From: Phlegmacium glaucopus
Lineage: Eukaryota; Basidiomycota; Agaricomycetes; Agaricales; Cortinariaceae
Length of the DNA stretch: 10,998 bases
Direction of reading: 5' to 3'
Assembly (NCBI GenBank): GCA_015039465.1
Contig: MU130496.1
Span: forward strand, 1 to 10,998
Shown: positions 1 to 10,998 of the stretch, in pieces
Numbering within the stretch: position 1 is the stretch's first letter
How the letters are laid out: each line of letters starts with the position of its first letter
Program-made: the position numbers and the translations under genes
Notes under the pieces: generated by a model
What the model saw: the letters and a program-made list of their open reading frames with translations, nothing else
Database searches by the model: none
What the model was told of the DNA's origin: nothing

Positions 1-435
1 ATGAGTCGACCGATGAGGGCCGAGGCCTCGCAAAGAAGGAATAGTGGAGAACTCGAATAGAAATTGAAGATAAAGTGTGCGTTAGTTGCCCAATGCGTCC
101 GGCGCGAAGAGATGTGACAAGAGATGGGATAGACCGATTAAGAAAATTTGACGCGAAACACCGACTTTTGTTACCAATTAAATGGGAACCCATGTTAGAA
201 GCCCCATTGATTTGTTAGGTCCCGGAGTCAATAGTAGGTGAGCCCTCATCCTTGACCGACGGAAGTCCATGACCTTAGCAAGCACATTAGTTTTCTATAC
301 TACTGATTGTAAAGGGGGTCGGGCTAACATTGCACTCGCATAGCCTGGGATTTGATTCCCTCCAATCGGACCATACCTATTTATTACCGTTACCATTCCA
401 GGACCTAAAGCATTGGAGAAGTTATTGAATATACA
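1..435. repeat. Left arm of a 435-base mirror repeat
   Basis: Base i of this arm equals base 9977-i of the same strand, letter for letter and without complementing. I compared all 435 positions: 433 agree, with mismatches at 96 (c against t at 9881) and 180 (a against c at 9797), and no gaps. Agreement stops sharply after 435/9542. Block C must be text-reversed to make sense (see 10290-10850), so this arm is probably the correctly written copy. No convincing gene lies in it. Its other strand is rich in C and T and would end in an ATG just outside the left edge, as a fungal promoter would. Confidence 0.95.
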
Positions 436-989
436 GTCACATTGGAAGAAATACAGCACACACCTTCTCTTGAGCGTAACCAAGTCTGCCATGTCCAATG
501 GTCCTGGGGATTTTAAGTGATCGATGTGTTAGGGACAACGAGATTCCATACGGGAGTCACTGGAAGGTCACCGGTCAGCCCTTTTCGGTACTGACATAGA
601 TACATAGCAATGGAGCGGCAGTATTTCACCAAAGAAATCCTCACCTAAACGATTCGCTCGAATTGAATTGAGCCATCTCTCTTCATGTTAGAAATAACCT
701 GAAGATTGTTTTTACCACTTGAACTGCCAGGCCATTATTAACGTTACATTGAAGTCCAAACTTGGAAGAGTTAGTATCCCATAGTCAGACCATAAGATTC
801 GTATTTACCGAAGGAACAACGAGTCTCATACACTAGTAGAACGACACAATGTTGCTGTGGCTGGTGACCGCGAGCATAACTGTAACTTAATGGAGAGCCA
901 CAAAGGCAACTACACGTGACGTTGTGATTTTTTTATTATATATTCGAGTTGGTCTCGACCCTTATATTCACCACCAAAAGTTCGCCACC
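436..989. other. Upstream region without a gene
   Basis: No open frame here has family resemblance or plausible splicing on either strand. The right end is the 5' flank of the F-box gene at 990. The left end is where the mirror arm stops. I see no tRNA, repeat array or further coding signal. Confidence 0.6.
913..943 (+). promoter_or_regulatory. Possible promoter: CACGTG box and TATA-like stretch
   Basis: A palindromic CACGTG E-box (913-918), directly followed by ACGT, lies 72 bases before the ATG at 990. A TATATAT-like stretch at about 938-943 lies roughly 47 bases before it. CACGTG is the binding site of fungal bHLH factors of the Cbf1 type. The assignment rests only on sequence and position, and a six-base match can occur by chance. 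Confidence 0.35.
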
Positions 990-2276
990 ATGTTCGACTC
1001 CACGGAACCTTTTCTTCCTTTCGACGTTATTGAATACATTGTCGACATCTACATCGAAGACTTGGATAACGCGGACTATCTCCAAAATGTGAAAGCGCTT
1101 TCATTGACAGGCCCACTTTTTCTGCATTTGTGCAGGAGCCATATGTTTTACTCCATCGACATAATCATTACCAATTCCTCACATTATTCAGATACTACCG
1201 AGGCGTTCGGAGAGCTTCTCTCAACCACACCCGAAATTGCGAGATATATCCGTGATCTGAAAATTTACATCGCAGAACCCAACATCAAGTCCACACACTT
1301 TTTTTCCCAAGTTCCACAACAGCTAACTGCATTGCTATCGCTTAGAGTTTCAAACTCCGATTTGGACTGGAACCTTGTTTCGTCTTCTATGCAGCGTTCA
1401 ATTCTGGATCTCATGCATCTTCCGACACTTAGGTATCTCTGCGTGGGACGGATGGAAAATTTCCTCGTTTCCAATCTCATCCCCTGTTCCAATCTCAGAC
1501 GCCTTTTCGTCAGGCAGTTTAGCACTGTCAGTGAAGATGCAGATGCAGATGACGGTACAGCATCTTCACTGTGCCACAAGCCACTACAATTTCGGATGTT
1601 TCATCTACACACGAAAAGTTTGCAAGACCTGAGTTTGCTGGAAGCAAAGTTTTCAGACGGACGGCCAATCCTGGACTTCACTGTTATGGAGAGGTTATTC
1701 ATCAACTTTGACTGGCCAGGCGCTGCCGTTCCGCTTCGAGAAATTTTTAAAAGGTCCCGGGAACTTCGAGATATCCACCTGGAAGGTAATGATATATCGA
1801 ATACTCGGTTTACTGGCTGGTACTCATGACATTGGTTTTCTGTAGTTAACCATACCTCCTTCCGAGCCCTCGAGTTCGCTACGGCGATCGCGCCATGCCT
1901 AGAAACACTAAGACGAGTGTGTTTGGATATAATTGCCCGTGAAACGCCAAATGATCCACTGGTAGGGCTTTGTGATGAGCTGGAAGACATCTCGGGAAAG
2001 AACATACTGGAATCTATCGAACTTGAAATCACGCTATTGATTGATGAGGATCATCCGTTAAGTGATGATTGGGCCAGACTGGAGAATATACTGCTCAAAC
2101 CTGGATGGCCAATGTTGAAGCGGGTTTTTCTTATTATTGGCATTCATGCTGACTTTTGGGACGGCTATGCCAGAGCTATGGCGAACCTGCTGAGAGCACA
2201 CTTCACTGGTTTGAAATCAAGCAAGACCTTTGATTTTCAGCTTTCAGTACAAGAAGAATGGAGGTTATTTATGTAG
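990..2276 (+). CDS. F-box domain protein, agaricomycete family (copy 1, intact)
   Basis: Probable substrate-recognition subunit of an SCF ubiquitin ligase; the substrate cannot be inferred. The start at 990 sits in a perfect GCCACCATG context; the open frame extends upstream to 924, but those codons lack family resemblance. Exon 1 is 990-1785. A 60-nt intron, 1786-1845, starts GTAATG, ends CTGTAG and contains an in-frame TGA. Exon 2 is 1846-2276, giving 408 residues in one frame. Residues about 6-52 have the F-box pattern (LPFDVIEYIVD, then ALSLTGPLFLHLCRSHMFYSI). The rest has regularly spaced Leu-rich segments (LMHLPTLRYL, SLLEAKFS) as in the leucine-rich halves of this family, with an acidic linker (EDADADDG). 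The paralogue at 8225-9183 has the intron at the same place and phase, which supports the splice model. It converges on the gene at 2503-5346. Confidence 0.85.
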
Positions 2277-2502
2277 ATATTTGTGTATCCTGTTTGCTCC
2301 AAGCTTTAGAGGCTTTAGGAAGGAGCACAGTCACTGTATACGAAGATAAAAAATTTCTATAGACGTATTTACCTCAGAACTTTTATATCAATTATTGGCC
2401 TAATCTCATAGAGGGTGGTTACCAGTCTGAGCCGGAACATCCAGTTACAGTAATGTAGCAGCCTCTACATGGTTCATATAATTTGAAGAGCCAACAATGA
2501 TT
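2277..2502. other. Convergent intergenic region shared with the second copy
   Basis: These are the 226 bases between the stops of two converging genes. Much of it recurs at 9184-9540 behind the truncated F-box copy, for example TTACCTCAGAACTTTTATAT and GAGCCAACAATGATTTCAGG. It presumably holds both polyadenylation regions, but I see no strong signal to place them. Confidence 0.6.
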
Positions 2503-5346
2503 TCAGGAAATCAACAACCAAGGTAACAGCCGCTCCAACAGGACTATTGCAAGACCACCGTCACCTTTCGTCATTTGCTGGGGAGAGGGTGGTAATGGCA
2601 AGGAAGGTGAAGGTGAAGGAGCCAAATCAACCCTGTAGATCGTCGATACATACGATTCTTCCAAATCTTAAAGAAAAGGAGAAAGAAAGATAAATGAATA
2701 TCGAGTGGATTTGAAGAAAACATGAAACCAAAGTCACCTCTTGGCGCCAGCGCAACGAACATATCTCCATTCGGGAATGCTAAAAAGCGGTTAAATCAAT
2801 CAGTATTTGCCGCAATACCAAAGACACAAATTGAGGAAAAACGCACAACGGTACATCCCCATCTTCAAATCCTGCTCATACTCTCTCTCCCATTTATCCA
2901 TCATCCTCTTCCTCTCCTTCTTCTCTTTCCTACTTGGCTCAAACCCCAAGCCCGCACCTGCCCCTCCGATCCCTACCTCACCACCAGTACCAGCACCACC
3001 ACCATGACCCCCACCCACCACATTTGCTCGGCCTCCTGCTCCGAGCAACTTACATGGCCAGGTAGGGTTCCAATTGAGATATAGACCGGTGTCGGACATC
3101 ATGAGGCAGCTTACTTCGTTCAGCCAGGAAGGGTTAGAAAAGTATGGGATTCGGAAGATGGAAAGTTTCGGGGGTGTTGGATGATTGAGACATAGTGCAC
3201 TGGCATCCTTGGACGTGGCGTTCGAGGACTGGGAATGAAGCGGCGAGGAAGGGATAGTAGGTATGACTACATATACCGCGTTTGACTACATGGATCAACC
3301 AAAAATGTCAGTCTGTAAGCGAAACGAAAAGGAAAACAAAGGTCCAGAGACTGACAGTAACAACCCCAATCCTGCCATCCTCATACGCCAAATACACACT
3401 CCTTGATGCCGAAGCCGGGCCAAGCTGGACATCCAGGGTATTTTCAAATATCCCTTTCTCTTTCTCATATTGTTCACGCCGCTCGCGAGCTTCGCGCCGA
3501 ACACGACGGTTTTCGCGGCGCCGAGTCGCTGACGATCGTTTTTTTTGTTGTTCTGGGCTTTTTTGAGAAGTGACGGTGGAGGTTGAAGCTACTGTGGTAA
3601 GAGTGGAAGCTGCTATCCTTGTACCGGGAACAGTAGGCAGAGAAAGCTTTAGAGAGGGAGGCGAAAGGGGTTCAGAGAGGAGAGCCTCGAAGTGGTGTAT
3701 GATTACCAGCCTGGAGCCGCCTAAGAGAGCAACGAGGTGCTTGCCGTCACTTGATACATGGACTGATAAAAAGATAGGAATTGAGTGAATGAAGAAAGGA
3801 GTAGTACAGAGATAAACATGCCAGCGATAAACTCATCAATCACCCTCCTCGCACTTGAATATAGCTCAAAACTACCAATAGGCAGCCTAGTCGTAGCCAA
3901 CATCCTCACAACCTCTCTTCCCTCCTCTTTAGCCTCTGCATAAGTATCCCTCTCCTCGACGTCATTACGCCCGATGCCATTCCCAACACCAACCCCCATA
4001 TTCGACGCCACTTCCCATCTCCACCTCCCATATCTCCACCTCGTAGAAGGTATGTCCAACACACAGTTCCCGGTCGCACGAGAGAAGACGCGCAAGAGGT
4101 TCCCACCTACAAAGAAGAGGTGTCGTGGGGAGATGTCGACGTATCGGACACGGCCTAGGAATTGGGGCACGGTGTTGGTGTCTTGGTCTTCTTCTTCTTC
4201 TTCGCCTTGCCTTCCACCGCCGCCAGGTTGAATAACTTGTATACCCTCCACAGTCTCCAGTAGCGTTCCCGTCCTCACATCCCACACGAACGCTTTCTCC
4301 AGACCCGCTACCAATAGGTGAGGATAGACACAACGGAAGGCGCTGGTGGGCTCAGGCATGTGCAGGACAGCGTGTGGGGTGAAGTGGGCTTTGAAATTTG
4401 CGAGTTCTGCAGGGGCGGCAGATGAAGAGGAGGGAAGAGGGCTCGATCTGGTGAGATGGGAAATGTAGTCCATTACATGGAGTTGGCGTTCGTCTGGGGA
4501 AGAGGCTGGGTCGATTTCAAATTCGGGTTCAATTTGAAGTGCATCTGCAGCGCCACCATGGCTGGTTGTGTGAGGTGGGATAGGGATCTCTGCCGTGCGC
4601 CTCCACACCTCCTTGTTCCCGTCATCACGGTTGAATATCATGAATCCCCCGTCGTATTCGAGGTGGACAAATCCAGGGACATACCACTATAAAGTGAACA
4701 TTCGATAAATTCATAAACCAAGAAAGATGAGAAACAGAATATACCACAGGCAACTCCCAGAGTACCACGTCTGTTTCCAAATCCCTCACTATCAAACCAC
4801 CTACCTCCGTCGTCGTCATTGTGATTCCCACTTTTTCATCCACCTTGAAACGGAGCACTTTGGAGTGGTGCGTCGATTCCGATTCTGGCTCTGGTTGTTG
4901 CGTTTGGGCTGAGCTTGACGGAGGGCGGGGCGAAGGTACCACGCGAGACGGCGCACGACCTGCCCAAGCTCTTTGAATCATCTTACGTCGTTTACCTGTG
5001 TAGAATATGCTTATCAGTATGTAAAAAAGAAATGGGAACAAGACATCGTACAAAAGTCCTTCCAATCCGACACACCGAACATTGCCCTGCTCGAGTAGAG
5101 CACTTTCCCCACGTCAACCGGTGGTCCGCCTTGCCTAGGACCAAGCTTCTCAAACAATACCGTCGGACTAGGACTATACCCTTCCAAAAACGCCGCCTGT
5201 CGATAGATTGTTTCTTTGTTCGTATCGATGAAGTCGTACCACTCGCGGTCAACTGTGAGAAGTGCCGAGAGCGTAGAAAGGGGAAGATAGGAAAGAACAT
5301 GATTCGTTATTTCTGTTGGGAGTTCTGTCGGAAACATTCTGACCAT
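2503..5346 (-). CDS. F-box protein with propeller-like C-terminal part, seven exons
   Basis: Probable SCF adaptor. Exons: 5346-5052, 4995-4745, 4686-3822, 3762-3356, 3285-2850, 2779-2738, 2666-2503; introns of 56, 58, 59, 70, 70 and 71 nt; 2460 coding bases, 819 residues. Residues about 4-45 form the F-box (FPTELPTEITNHVLSYLPLS), followed by WKDFCKRRKMIQRAW, usual for this agaricomycete family. Residues 150-606 carry propeller-like strands: IVRDLETDVVLWELP, HLLVAGLEKAFVWDVRTG, VDISPRHLFFVGGNLLRVFS, HVSSDGKHLVALLGGSRLVI, YLAYEDGRIGVVT. Residues about 548-573 are a very basic, probably coiled insert (TRRRENRRVRREARERR). A Gly-rich stretch follows MSDTGLYLNWNPTWP; exon 7 encodes DLEESYVSTIYRVDLAPSPS. 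Intron 3 must be a GC-AG intron to keep frame. The donor of intron 5 is uncertain (2849 or 2854), and ATG 5335-5337 is an alternative start with better context. Exons 1-5 are firm; 6-7 rest on frame continuity and the block C paralogue. Confidence 0.8.
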
Positions 5347-5576
5347 CCAGAGAAAGGAAGGGATGGAATCGATAGCCAAGATGATCGATAAAGCAGCGCA
5401 GGTGTTGGCAAAGCCATGAGCCTACCCACGTGCTCAGAAACGAGGAGAAAGCGTGATCATTGCATAAAGTTTAATATGATAGTCATTCGCCAGAGCAACG
5501 CTCGCCTTTTGGGTGTCTTTCTGTGCGCTGAACTAGCCAGGGTTCTTTGTAAACCCCTCTTTTTTTGTTTGGTCAC
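5347..5576. other. Upstream region of the seven-exon gene, no further gene seen
   Basis: This is the 5' flank of the minus-strand F-box gene. Open frames crossing it are not family-like and use weak starts; the frame continuing upstream of 5346 begins only at a TTG. Apart from the CACGTG box I see nothing to annotate. Confidence 0.5.
5427..5432 (-). promoter_or_regulatory. CACGTG box upstream of the seven-exon F-box gene
   Basis: The palindrome CACGTG lies 80 bases upstream of the ATG at 5346, nearly the same distance as the CACGTG before the F-box gene at 990 (72 bases). It could be a bHLH-factor site. Position and shared spacing are the only support. Confidence 0.3.
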
Positions 5577-5725
5577 GAGCTTGACAGAGGCGGGCGGGGC
5601 GAAGGTACCACGCGAGACAGCGCACGACCTGCCCAAGTTTTTTTGAATCATCTTACGTCGTTTATCTGTGTAGAGCATGCATATTAGTAAAGAAAAAAAT
5701 AAATGGGAACAATATATCGTACAAA
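5577..5725 (-). pseudogene. Partial duplicate of exon 2/intron 1 of the neighbouring F-box gene
   Basis: This stretch repeats 4911-5055 in the same orientation, from the GAGCTTGAC start through the KRRKMIQ codons, the intron 1 acceptor and the donor GTACGAT. Relative to the functional copy, the A-run after ATTCA is one base longer, shifting the frame so that RAWAGR is lost. There is no F-box coding sequence on its 5' side; homology stops at the old splice donor. It is a broken tandem fragment lying about 670 bases from its source and is not expected to make a protein. Confidence 0.8.
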
Positions 5726-5940
5726 TGTGGCTCTAGCAGCTTGACCAGCAATATATGTAGTATTCACAATGGGTTTCGTGGGATACAAAAGATGCCTCAG
5801 TTGTTGATTTGATGAGCAGGAACTAGAGAAAGCCCTTGTAAGAAGAATGGATCCGATCCGTGTCGTGTGTGCGACTCCGGTTGCAGGAAAGGTCCAATGA
5901 CAAGGCCTCATTGAGACTGCACTGAAGAAACAAAATTTGA
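5726..5940. other. Unassigned stretch between the duplicate fragment and block B
   Basis: The minus strand is open from 5911 through 5684, with a short Ser/Arg-rich N-terminal part (TRAFSSSCSSNQQLR) that runs into the copied splice donor near 5725. I do not recognise a family. It may be the leading exon of a chimeric fragment or a chance frame. The end towards 5940 is where natural reading appears to switch to the reversed block, but the exact base cannot be fixed by eye. Confidence 0.3.
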
Positions 5941-6003
5941 ATTGTACACCGAGGGAGGGGCAGGGGAGTCGTGTGTAGAGACTCGTTGAGGTAGGAAAGT
6001 TGA

Positions 6004-6727
6004 TACCGGCTATTAACGTGGTGGGTCGACCTTGTTCGTCAACGACATAACGTTCGAGTCCTGTAATTCTTGGTTCGTTTTAAGTTAGTTCAAAACTGTT
6101 ACAAATTAGTTGAACAATGTCGGTTACATGTTGGTGGACATGGTGTTGTTCTTCAAGGAAACGTGTGGTTCTCGTATGGATCCTAAGTAAGGTGCTCTGA
6201 CCGTGAGGACTACCTTAAACTGTCCCCTACTAGGTCTCCTTACCGTAAGGAGGTAAGTACGGTTTGTATATAGTCCGAGACAGGACTACTTAAAAGGCTA
6301 CTCGTTTGGTTTTAATAGACCCGAGACAGGATATACTTCAGGTCTTCTCGTAGCTTTACCTGTCGGTCTCAGAATACAACCCTTTGTCTATTAGGGTCTA
6401 ACTGAGCGAAGGACCTAACCTTACTGAAGACTCTACTGAAGTTTTTCCTTAAAACAGACCATTTACGGTTGAGTCAACGGTAGTTGTCTAATCTCAGCTG
6501 ACCCATGAAGGTTTTTTTGACCAGGAACCTTCTGATATATCTACTCAAGGTTCTGGACTAGTGTCTAAGGTCTATGTGCCTAGGTTTTTGGTAGTATCAT
6601 TTCAAAACTTCTCCGGACTTGTGGGTTTAAGTCTTGAGGTAAATGGTAACCGCCCTACAGGTGCCATCTTAAAAGTGAAACGGGAAACAGGAAGGTAGTA
6701 GCCAGTGCGTTAATTATTAGTAATACA
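6004..6727. mobile_element. Decayed Ty3/gypsy retrotransposon gag (readable only by complement without reversal)
   Basis: Taking the complement left to right, ATG at 6004 opens a frame that runs to the TGA at 6727 with three earlier TGA codons at 6229, 6430 and 6607. The N-terminal part is Gln-rich and probably coiled (LEQAVAVLQAQD), followed by a proline-rich linker (NVQPPVPQQEVP). The capsid-like part shows the agaricomycete gypsy gag pattern: SRGMAFLHSCQTYIRLCPDE, then DEQTKIIWALSYMKSRRA, then TIIVKF, a stop, RGLNTQIQN. At all three stops the family pattern suggests an Arg codon CGA changed to TGA. The frame degenerates after about 6640, and no protease, reverse transcriptase or integrase is seen. 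It is a dead gag fragment. Confidence 0.85.
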
Positions 6728-7880
6728 CTGCTATAACCATGAATGACACGTATAGATGTTTCATAACGACGGTAGCGTGACTTTTATCTGGTCGGACATG
6801 AGTACAACCTCTCTCTTCCCGATGGTTAATATTATATACGGAGGGAACAGTGAAAGAGTTTCCTACCTAGTTGGGTGACGTAACGAAACAGTGCTCTCTG
6901 ACCCTAACACTGTAACACAATGGCACTGTTTCCCGTAACTACCGCCGAACTCCGTTACATCGTCAGGAGCCGTCCACGAAACCCTCACTTGTCCTGCCCG
7001 TCCGGTTCTCCGTTCCAGACTCTAAAGTTCAAAAACAGACCTGTCCTTAAACACTAAGTCACGCTAAGAACAGGCCTAACGTGGATCCAAGGGTTTTAAA
7101 ACGGTTTTAAAAGGCTTTTATACAGACCTAACAACTGGATCGATAAAAAGCCGGGTTAAAAAGTCCGGTTAAAACAGGCCTAACCACCCAGTCCGGAGAA
7201 TCCCGAGCTTTTTATAGACATGACGAGAACGGACGGAGTTTTTTCGTGTTAAGATCGAATCTTACTCACATAGGATAACAGATGCTCATTTGCCCAGTTC
7301 TTACGGATTGACTCTCTACCCGGAAGAGGTTTAGAAACAAAATGTTTTTTAATAATAATAAAATTCAGGTCTTATTGTATGTTTTTTCTTTCTTTTTTAG
7401 TCTCCCCCTTAGTTTGGTCTGATGTGATATAATATCATATAAATCGTAGGAGTTTCAACAGGCCTATCCGTTGGATTGGATAGGATTAAAGGAGTTTGAA
7501 CAGACCTAAGGCCGTGACCGACGGATTTAAAAAAACCGTTTAGAACAGGCCTAACTACGGTCGACAGCCAGTTTTTTGGAGTTTAGGACAGGCCTAATAC
7601 GACTACTCTTCAAGTGTGCGACTACGGTTTGTTACCCGAAGTTTCTAGTTTCATGTTTACTTGGTACCTGTAGGGCGGTTGGAATGGGGTAACGGTGTTA
7701 CCGAAAAAAAAAAAAAAAAAAGAATAACATCCAAGAAACTCAAAAAAATAACAGGAAACACCGTTCGGTATACCATCTGTATATGACATTTACATTAATG
7801 ACCTCACACGATGAACCGGTACTACTGGTACTTGACTAGTTGACGATACTCTTTACACAATCCCGTTGACGCTACGACTG
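6728..7880. repeat. Non-coding repeat DNA with scattered AACAGGCCTAAC-like motifs (block B)
   Basis: No frame is convincing in any reading. The written motif AACAGGCCTAAC and variants (complement TTGTCCGGATTG) occur about seven times between 7066 and 7600, irregularly spaced, with runs of A/T such as GGTTTTAAAACGG between them. A run of 18 A lies at 7704-7721. A short piece at about 6780-6800 still resembles a later gag section in the complement reading (KIDQ). I see nothing else. Confidence 0.55.
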
Positions 7881-8198
7881 AATCAGTTCGATCGTCCCCT
7901 AGGTTTCAATTATTATAAAGTTTCCCTATAGATGTTCACTGAGTGGATCGTCCCCTAGGTTTCTCCTTTCCTACCCCTAGGGACGATCCGACTCCCCATA
8001 AATTCATGATTATACCTGTATTGCCTCTATATTTTATTTATTTCCTTACTATACTATTATTAATTAATTAATTAATTCTTCACCACACTATACTTTTTAT
8101 TTTTATTTTCTGCCTCGCTTGACCTCCCAGCCTCAGCCTTACCTCAATGCCTCATTGCCTCCACTCTCTTGCCTTGCTGGTAACTAATACATTAACAG
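7881..8198. mobile_element. LTR-like end of the retroelement (complement reading)
   Basis: In the complement read left to right there are two CTAGCAGGGGATCCAAAG-type repeats (near 7890 and 7948), an opposing GGGATCCCTGCTAG, then GGGGTATTTAAGTAC as a TATA-like box. A (TTAA)n tract (8059-8077 as written) and a GGAG/CGGA-rich stretch follow. The order resembles the 3' flank and promoter part of fungal gypsy LTRs. No second LTR is in the window, so the LTR borders cannot be defined. Confidence 0.4.
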
Positions 8199-8224
8199 AA
8201 AAAAAAAAAAAAAAAAAAAAAAAA
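8199..8224 (+). repeat. Run of 26 A at the junction between block B and the truncated F-box copy
   Basis: Twenty-six A in a row, directly followed by the first base homologous to the intact F-box gene (CCACAACAGCT, matching 1314 onwards). It marks the breakpoint. It could be a real homopolymer used as an insertion site or a low-complexity bridge where two pieces were joined. Confidence 0.85.
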
Positions 8225-9183
8225 CCACAACAGCTGACAAGCCTACAATCGCTTACAGTTTCGAATTCCTTTTATTCTGTACTGGACTGGAACCTTGTTT
8301 CGTCGTCTATGCACCGTTCACTTCTGGATCTCATGCATCTTCCGACACTTAACTATCTCCACCTGGGAAAGATGGAAAATTTCCTCATTTCCGATCTCAT
8401 CCCCTGTTCCAATCTCAAACATCTTTCCGTCGACGAACTTTCCATTGCCAGTGAAGATGGGGATGCAGATGACGGTGCAGCATCATCTTCACTATACCAC
8501 AAACCGCTGCAACCTCAGATGTTTGATCTACAAACATACAGTTTGGAAGACCTGAAATTGCTGGAATCAAAGTTTTCAGACGGACGGCCAATCCTGGACT
8601 TCACTGGTATGGAGAAGTTAGTCATCAACTTTCACTGGCCAGGTGCTGCCGTTCCACTTCAAGAAATCTTTAAAAGGTCTCGGGAACTTCGAGATATCCA
8701 CCTGAAAGGTAATGATATATTGAATACTTGGTTTACTGGCTGGTACTCATGACATATTTTTTTGTAGTTGACCATGCCTCCTTCCGAGCCCTGGAGTTCG
8801 CTACAACGATCGCGCCATGCCTAGAAACACTAAGACGAATGTGTTTAGATATAGATTCCAGTAAATCGTCAAACGATCCACTGGCAGGGCTTTGTGATGA
8901 GCTCGAAGATATCTTGGGAAAGAATAAACTGGAATCTATCGAACTTGAAATCACGCTATTGATTGACCAGGATTCCCGGTTAAGTGGTGATTGGGCCAGA
9001 CTGGAGAGGATACTGCTCAAACCTGGATGGCCAATGCTGAAGCAGGTTTTTCTCCTTGTCATCATTTACGCCAACTCTCGGGCGACCTATACCTGGGCCC
9101 TAAGGACCCTGCTGCCGGCACGCTTCGCTGGTTTAAGATCAAGCAAGGATTTTCGGTTTTCAATACGAGAAGAAAATTTTTAA
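8225..9183 (+). pseudogene. 5'-truncated paralogue of the F-box gene (copy 2)
   Basis: Matches the gene at 990-2276 from its residue 109 to the stop, with the F-box half missing. Exon 8225-8708, intron 8709-8767 (59 nt, GTAATG to TTTGTAG), exon 8768-9183, in one frame with a TAA stop. Shared segments include DWNLVSSSM, MHLPTL, KFSDGRPILDF, WPGAAVPL and IELEITLLID. Many differences are third-position or conservative, so it was probably under selection before truncation. The acidic linker has an extra Ser (AASSSLY). The open frame extends upstream through a poly-Lys encoded by the A-run and into retroelement-like DNA (to 8147); that is not a credible N terminus. If block B is a misplaced insertion, the missing 5' half may exist elsewhere in the genome. 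Confidence 0.8.
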
Positions 9184-9541
9184 GGTAAGGTTATATGTAG
9201 ATCTTTGTGCATCCCGTTCACTCCAAGCTCTAGAGGACTTAGGAAGGAGCACAGCCACTGCATACAAAGAATGATCATTACTTCTATACAATTTAATCAG
9301 ACGTGTTTACCTCAGAACTTTTATATCATTTATTGGTCTAATCTCATAGGGGTGGTTACCAGTCTACCTGCTGGAACATCCAGTTAGAGTGATGTAGCGT
9401 AATTTGTGTGTCGGAATAATTGAAAACAGAATCCATAATCACTGACATAATTCAGTAATCATTGGTATTGAATGATATTATGATTTGGAATTTTCCAACG
9501 TATAATATTGAAGAGCCAACAATGATTTCAGGAAAACAACA
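9184..9541. other. 3' flank of copy 2, homologous to 2277-2520
   Basis: Shares TTACCTCAGAACTTTTATAT, GGTGGTTACCAGTCT and GAGCCAACAATGATTTCAGG with the flank of copy 1, so the duplicated unit spans gene and convergent spacer. It reaches the last codons of the converging seven-exon gene (TTTCAGGAAA). Copy 2 carries roughly 80-90 extra AT-rich bases at about 9405-9505. Homology ends at 9540, exactly where the mirror arm begins. Confidence 0.7.
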
Positions 9542-9976
9542 ACATATAAGTTATTGAAGAGGTTACGAAATCCAGGACCTTACCATTGCCATTATTTATC
9601 CATACCAGGCTAACCTCCCTTAGTTTAGGGTCCGATACGCTCACGTTACAATCGGGCTGGGGGAAATGTTAGTCATCATATCTTTTGATTACACGAACGA
9701 TTCCAGTACCTGAAGGCAGCCAGTTCCTACTCCCGAGTGGATGATAACTGAGGCCCTGGATTGTTTAGTTACCCCGAAGATTGTACCCAAGGGTAACTTA
9801 ACCATTGTTTTCAGCCACAAAGCGCAGTTTAAAAGAATTAGCCAGATAGGGTAGAGAACAGTGTAGAGAAGCGCGGCCTGTGTAACCCGTTGATTGCGTG
9901 TGAAATAGAAGTTAAAGATAAGCTCAAGAGGTGATAAGGAAGAAACGCTCCGGAGCCGGGAGTAGCCAGCTGAGTA
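9542..9976. repeat. Right arm of the 435-base mirror repeat
   Basis: Letter-for-letter reverse of bases 1-435 (two mismatches). It begins block C, in which everything recognisable needs text reversal. In the complement reading it is C/T-rich and leads into an ATG at 9975-9977 followed by codons for VTATTILWV, as the promoter and first exon of an unknown gene would. Confidence 0.95.
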
Positions 9977-10118
9977 CCAATGTCGATGGTGGTAGGATAC
10001 CCATTGCTACATGCAGGGCTGTGTTTTAATCACAAAAGTAAGGATCCGAAATACTAAATTAAAGTCGAAGCAATAAACAGAAGACTGCCAGACGCAAGCG
10101 GTGGGTATACACATCAAA

Positions 10119-10241
10119 AGGGCCGTGTGACTTACCGTCTTTGATTAACAAGAAATATGCGGACACTGGAAATCGCTGTTCCAAGGACGGGTACTGGCGC
10201 GTCGATAGCTCCGGAGGGACTGCCTGTACATGTTTTCCATC
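10119..10241. other. Unknown coding fragment (complement reading)
   Basis: In the complement read left to right, after a possible acceptor TGTGTAG, a frame runs from 10116 to a TAG at 10239-10241 with protein-like composition (HTEWQKLIVLYTPVTFSDK, then AHDRAAIEASLTDMYKR). I do not recognise the family. It may belong to the gene whose start would lie at 9975. The splice structure in between cannot be fixed, so this is a suggestion only. Confidence 0.3.
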
Positions 10242-10289
10242 GGCAGGTCCGAGTGGTTCCAATAGTAGATTAGGGATGAAAGGTAGAAG

Positions 10290-10850
10290 GTTTAGGGTAT
10301 GAAAACGAACCCCAAACTCGGCTCATCCTTTCTCTTCCTCCTCCTCTCCTTCTCCTACCACCTATCCACCCTCTCTCTCTCATACTCGCCCTAAACTTCT
10401 TCCAACACGCAAAAAGTAATTAAAAACAGAAACCATGACGTTGCTCATGACTAACTAAACTGACGAAAAATCGTAAGGGCTGGCCTCTATACAAGCAGCA
10501 CGACCACGGATCTCCACTCGAACCAAAGTAGAAATAGAAGTTTAAGAGAGCTCGCCCTATACTTCTTCCAACACGCAAAAAGTAATTAAACACAGAAACC
10601 ATAACGCTGCTCATGACTAACTAAACTGGCGAAAAATCGCAAGGACTTACCTCTATACAAGTAGCGCGACCGCGGATCTCCACTCAAACTAGAGCAGAAA
10701 AGAAGTTTAAGTGAGCTATAAGTAAATAGAAAGAAAGGTGAAAAAGAAAGTCTAAATCTTCTTAACCTACATAGCTGATAGATGTCTTAACTAAACCGAG
10801 GGAATGAGAGTGGAAGGAAGGTAACGGTGGATAAGGGTCGTTTACTGCTT
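10290..10850. pseudogene. Paralogue of the 3' half of the seven-exon F-box gene (block C, complement reading)
   Basis: Complement reading gives KLSIFQIPYF, then directly LGFEPSRKE. The intact gene has about 185 further bases there, including the MSDTGLYLNW segment, so this copy has an internal deletion. It then carries the exon 6 stretch (FPTGDMFVVLVPR) twice because of a 166-base tandem duplication, and an exon 7 part (DLEELDVSTIYRIDLAP). The donor after VPR reads GTGAGT and the acceptor TTTCAG, both closer to consensus than in the intact gene, which supports the exon 6/7 model there. The end of exon 7 is frameshifted relative to the intact gene. Probably a pseudogene. Confidence 0.75.
10385..10715. 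repeat. Tandem duplication, two units of about 166 bases
   Basis: Units 10385-10550 and 10551-10715 both begin CTCGCCCTA and share ACTTCTTCCAACACGCAAAA and GCTCATGACTAACTAAACT. They differ at scattered positions, by eye about one in ten, so the duplication is not very recent. Each unit covers an intron 5, exon 6 and start of intron 6 equivalent. Confidence 0.85.
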
Positions 10851-10913
10851 TACACTGCCACCAGAATGAGGCCCTCCGCTGTCAGGACATCTTCGGTAGT
10901 CAGCTAGCTCCTT

Positions 10914-10998
10914 TACCTCTCACTTCCGCCGGTCTCGGTTCTCTACTGGTACTTACGGGGGAGAGACAAGCATATACCTTTCCATCGAGAATGAAGCA
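10914..10998. CDS. Possible first exon of an AIG2/gamma-glutamylcyclotransferase-like gene (complement reading, cut by window end)
   Basis: In the complement read left to right, ATG at 10914 opens a frame with MESEGGQSQEM and then APSLFVYGK. An FVYG motif near the N terminus is the glycine-containing substrate loop of AIG2/gamma-glutamylcyclotransferase-like proteins, which usually read YGTL. After GGAAAG a GTAGCT could be a donor. Only 28 codons are visible, so the family call rests on one short motif. Confidence 0.3.

Follow-up and report, generated by a model that had tools for sequence, protein, structure and literature searches.

The first 10,998 bases of scaffold C170 (C170:1-10998, hereafter the window) of Phlegmacium (Cortinarius) glaucopus contain a mirror repeat, in which bases 1-435 recur at 9542-9976 of the same strand in reversed order and without complementing. 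We consider, at a probability of about 95%, that this mirror is an assembly artefact: the stretch 9542-10998 finds its match only when read backwards, and a gap filler would have complemented a piece from the opposite strand without reversing it. Judged from the sequence, a biological origin of the mirror appears very unlikely. The scaffold is 68,378 bases long in an assembly of 60.5 Mb and 259 contigs. The window is followed directly by 13,804 N (C170:10999-24802), and a second N run lies at C170:48221-52753; both are presumably assembly gaps. The locus is also present, in natural order, on another scaffold, C157, which served as the reference for the following comparisons. The two arms of the mirror are as follows.

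1-435, + strand: mirror arm 1, in natural orientation at the start of scaffold C170; same strand as C157:93470-93904, 434/435 identical
9542-9976, no strand: mirror arm 2, string-reversed; the putative gap-extension part overlapping contig 1, 433/435

We compared the arms in every orientation. Against the plain reversal of 9542-9976, arm 1 agreed at 433 of 435 bases without gaps, with mismatches at 96/9881 and 180/9797, so that the mirror with two point differences reported in the initial annotation was reproduced. The direct and complementary comparisons gave 110/435 and 111/435 agreements, respectively, and the reverse complement gave 0/435, by which an ordinary inversion was rejected. Exact mirror matches within the window reached 255 bases at most, compared with a maximum of 11-15 bases in 20 shuffles (in blocks of two bases); the mirror is exact and far beyond chance.

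Both arms are of mixed sequence, with 238 purines among the 435 bases of arm 1, and they lie 9 kb apart on two different contigs. Natural mirror repeats, or H-DNA, share the same-strand reversal symmetry but are described in the available text of PMC9171763 as polypurine-polypyrimidine tracts, and a natural mirror of this kind was rejected because the arms are mixed. The earlier statement that a 435-base mirror of complex sequence has no known origin is one we share, as no known biology makes one.

Backward blocks in the scaffold

On C157, the locus runs through the counterparts of contig 2 (91129-92446), of block 1 once reversed (92447-93904) and of contig 1 (93470-99313). C170 holds the locus C157:86022-99313 in scrambled order, its own end (67505-68378) corresponding to C157:86022-86895 at 99.4%. 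This scrambled order relative to C157 suggests that C170 may be an allelic scaffold with misordered contigs. The window can be divided into the following pieces.

1-5858, + strand: contig 1, natural piece; window 1-5859 is colinear with C157:93470-99313 (98.0%), with a natural orientation score
5753-5858, + strand: terminal 106 bases of contig 1; beyond the window, C170:27498-27603 is their exact mirror (106/106 reversed)
5859-8199, no strand: backward block 2, a string-reversed putative extension of contig 1, from orientation score, alignment and junction J2
8200-8224, + strand: 25-A filler (putative) between two pieces; a 26-A run when the last base of block 5859-8199 is counted
8225-9542, + strand: contig 2, natural piece; C157:91129-92446 at 99.8%
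9542-10998, no strand: backward block 1, by which contig 2 would be extended as far as the N run; reversed, it matches C157:92447-93904 (99.3%)

When block 1 was reversed in place, contig 2 and block 1 formed a single alignment to C157 that covered 2,774 window bases at 99.5%. A diverged tandem copy at C157:88774-90221 has the same natural orientation, at 93.6%. The reversed block continues contig 2 as in C157, indicating that the orientation is backward for about 1,457 bases up to the gap. As written, 9977-10998 matched nothing in the whole assembly except itself, and the last 435 bases of block 1, correctly read, were the start of contig 1. The initial annotation had rightly held that one copy was written backwards, and the backward one is 9542-9976, arm 1 being natural as in C157. 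The backward stretch is not limited to the 435 bases of the arm; it extends over 9542-10998, with an inner boundary uncertain by about 1 base. It had also been supposed that the arm might continue to the left of the window, and an alignment of the reversed 9542-10998 to the sequence there had been proposed; however, C170 itself starts with the first base of the window, which leaves no room for a continuation within this scaffold, and the alignment, which succeeded at the 99.3% given above, was made to C157 instead. Because base 9542 pairs with C157:93904 and base 10998 with C157:92447, the order is reversed, and a block that was complemented only was rejected. By reasoning alone, we also rejected a reverse-complement routine in which lower-case letters are skipped, since its use on whole contigs would leave complement-only blocks in natural order, unlike those seen here.

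The arms had initially been read as two separate copies or haplotypes of one locus. Two real haplotype copies of the dikaryon at different places, one of them additionally written backwards, would agree with the allele-like identity of C170 and C157 at the locus (98-99.8%), and with the two sites at which the arms differ, where C157 sides once with each arm. A second copy is nevertheless not needed, since contig 2, once its extension is restored, runs directly on into the first bases of contig 1, which is also the arrangement in C157, and we regard this explanation as unlikely. Thus separate copies are doubtful, and a haplotype difference is possible. A simpler view is that both arms represent a single locus, which would open one contig and recur in the gap extension of another, the one that probably comes before it.

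The orientation of C170 was then scored with a strand-symmetric Markov model trained on C157, by which the scaffold was segmented into natural and backward parts. Four backward blocks were found, near 5859-8199, 9542-10998 and 24803-27603, and one ending at 48220 (blocks 2, 1, 3 and 4, respectively); three of them adjoin N runs, and the remaining one adjoins a run of 25 A. Among 102 windows (400 bases each) of held-out natural C170 sequence, 8 scored negative. An earlier and cruder scan, trained on both scaffolds, found the same four blocks.

Block 2 is a second backward block within the window, which the initial annotation had missed. In-place reversal connects it to contig 1 and yields one alignment, across the end of that contig, with the reversed C170:24803-27603 at 98.2%; as written, 5859-8199 and C170:25143-27497, both backward, are 98.1% alike in the same direction. 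Block 3 (C170:24803-27603) begins at the far edge of the N run. Read in reverse, it opens with the 106 bases that end contig 1 (106/106), and its other end joins contig 3 at C170:27604, as repeat relatives in C157 and C170 do. Block 4, with an outer edge near 46,770, ends at C170:48220 beside the N run 48221-52753. Taken as 46400-48220 and reversed, it contains a 290-residue frame with a Retrotrans_gag domain (PF03732, E=4.6e-11); its longest frame as written (96 residues) gave no Pfam match. Each of the four blocks thus has a contig end on one side and an N run or the filler on the other, and blocks 1-3, once reoriented, continue their contigs.

Junctions were examined within C157 and C170, counting matches that extended 30 bases or more to each side. 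All three junctions restored by in-place reversal of blocks 1-3 were spanned elsewhere in C157 or C170, and the junctions as written were spanned by nothing but themselves within these two scaffolds. Note that the 100% partner of J2 is the backward block 3 itself; in C157, J2 is spanned at 84%, by a match that extends 40 bases beyond the junction.

The 25 A at 8200-8224 are absent from C157 before 91129, and absent after the matching base C170:27497. Runs of exactly 25 A occur in the assembly 157 times on the forward strand and once on the reverse strand; the corresponding numbers are 72 and 1 for 26 A, and 1 and 1 for 23 A. Such a run, on one strand and of fixed length, is most simply a filler between pieces. 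A true chromosomal mirror duplication, produced by some parallel-strand copying process, has as its sole point in favour that the letters stand in the assembly. No copying of DNA in parallel orientation is known; moreover, the effect, where tested, is found in gap-edge blocks, with a coding frame readable only backwards, and it accompanies the one-strand 25-A run. We give this explanation next to no credence.

Mirrored copies of a dispersed repeat across the assembly

Block 2 holds a mirrored copy (window 7853-8154) of a dispersed 302-base repeat, which was searched for in the whole assembly in both forms. The natural form had 709 candidate places, of which 40 were scored and gave 41 matches. 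The mirrored form had 38 candidates, all of which were scored, and gave 39 matches on 30 contigs, three of them in C170. Nineteen of these 39 cover at least 260 bases, on 15 contigs, and the weakest are 36-40 bases long.

We read the 16 top-scoring mirrored loci outside C170, in roughly 3.3 kb each. A backward segment overlapped the mirrored copy in 16 of these 16 loci, and at least one of the 400-base flanks outside the copy scored backward in 15. An N run was present in 11 loci and a 25/26-A run in 3 others, which makes 14 of 16 with either. In C170, two of the three mirrored copies have such a run within about 1.5 kb. Natural copies had none within this distance, either in the four loci read or among seven in C157 and C170 (one copy shared). 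Mirrored matches recur across the assembly, in the loci read mostly near N or 25/26-A runs, and the artefact is very likely recurrent in this assembly, as far as the sequence can tell.

The 302-base repeat is possibly the long terminal repeat (LTR) of a Gypsy-type element, because a mirrored copy lies in block 4, whose reversed sequence contains the gag frame described above. A 95-residue reversed frame of the window block resembles this gag frame by eye; Pfam gave no gag match for it.

These results also bear on the stage at which the reversal arose. Since string reversal could come from any text-handling fault, it might have happened after assembly, in file conversion or deposition, and not in gap filling. 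Block edges in C170, however, coincide with N runs, piece junctions and the 25-A run, which a later step would be unlikely to follow, and the runs near 14 of the 16 mirrored loci elsewhere speak in the same direction. In addition, two of the blocks share 435 and 106 bases with the contigs that are probably their true neighbours, an overlap to be expected of read extensions. A reversal after assembly is therefore quite improbable in our view.

Proposed origin in gap filling

We propose that the backward blocks arose as an error of gap filling. Long-read gap filling would have extended contig ends into the gap, with a piece coming from the opposite strand. If that piece was complemented but not reversed, the outcome would be a plain reversal of the right sequence in the right place, and such a fault would account for each of the three blocks tested. 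The contig order would also be wrong, the true one probably being contig 2, the extension in block 1, contig 1 and contig 3 (from C170:27604). With the contigs scaffolded in the order 1, 2, 3, the extension of contig 2 would have entered contig 1 from the opposite direction and covered 435 bases of it, so that these bases would be present twice, forwards and backwards, as a mirror.

In the available text of PMC7550596, the hybrid genomes of a study that includes P. glaucopus were assembled with ALLPATHS-LG and patched with PBJelly. PBJelly takes a run of at least 25 N as a gap and splices contig-end extensions into gaps (PMC3504050, available text), and, when it is used on mis-scaffolded contigs, the extensions fail to meet and sequence is duplicated (PMC9635638, in the part available). 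The case of C170 resembles such overfilled gaps on mis-scaffolded short-read contigs, as far as these two sources describe them, in that extensions come from non-neighbours and sequence is duplicated; gap edges and the 25-base gap threshold are the shared landmarks. Unlike in these accounts, whose available text describes no reversal, the blocks here are string-reversed and the short filler is A. We suspect PBJelly as the source of the fault, and this strain to be among the patched hybrid genomes. We further put forward, tentatively and at somewhat less than even odds, that a half-done reverse complement wrote part of the genome backwards beside 25-A fillers, and that hybrid drafts from the same pipeline share such blocks.

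Several observations weigh against this account. The cruder scan was also mildly negative in 1-kb windows outside the blocks, namely C170 40501 and 59001 and six in C157, the lowest at -12.1; the later segmentation dropped them. Only 3 of 6 gap edges in the two scaffolds were backward, the two edges of C157 being a weak test as this scaffold was the training set. Frame length was uninformative for blocks 1-3, in which the longest reversed and written frames were 131/105, 104/73 and 108/144 residues, respectively. That the filler is A, and not N, stays unexplained. Among the mirrored loci, the backward segment covers part of the copy and not all of it in L033 and L040, no N or A run lies in the stretch read for L033 and L045, and neither flank scores backward in L035. 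Proximity to A runs was only mildly higher for mirrored than for natural matches, at 5/39 versus 1/41 within 1.5 kb and 6/39 versus 5/41 within 5 kb, as measured with 171 of the 229 forward A-run sites. As for the literature, membership of this strain in the hybrid set is not stated in the available text of PMC7550596, and our literature search found no text on such a fault of PBJelly; no such reversal is described in the accessible parts of PMC8480192, PMC8081667, PMC6191289, PMC4580222, PMC8848313 and PMC6240028.

Other features of the window and significance

Two hypothetical proteins of one tandem family are also encoded in the window, at 924-2276 and 8225-9398. Their DNA is 82% identical (1314-2459 versus 8225-9398), and further copies are present in C157:86000-96000. 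The frames scanned gave no Pfam match above the cut-off, and one source names a distant relative F-box domain-containing. An F-box-like domain (PF12937, E=3.2e-06) lies at 5014-5379 on the minus strand. Short direct duplications were found at 4902-5057/5567-5728 and 10385-10552/10551-10717, at 86% and 89%, respectively.

The proposed origin removes a seemingly impossible structure from the record. Four blocks of C170, and by the repeat search also places on as many as 30 contigs (15 if near-full-length copies alone are counted), are very likely backward, and gene models, repeat counts and alignments inside such blocks would be meaningless. Ordinary aligners compare the usual two orientations, in neither of which a plain reversal finds a match, and they would therefore miss the fault. 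Other assemblies could be checked at little cost by searching for mirrored copies of a common repeat and by counting 25-A runs on each strand. If hybrid drafts from the same pipeline do carry backward blocks, these two checks would expose them all.

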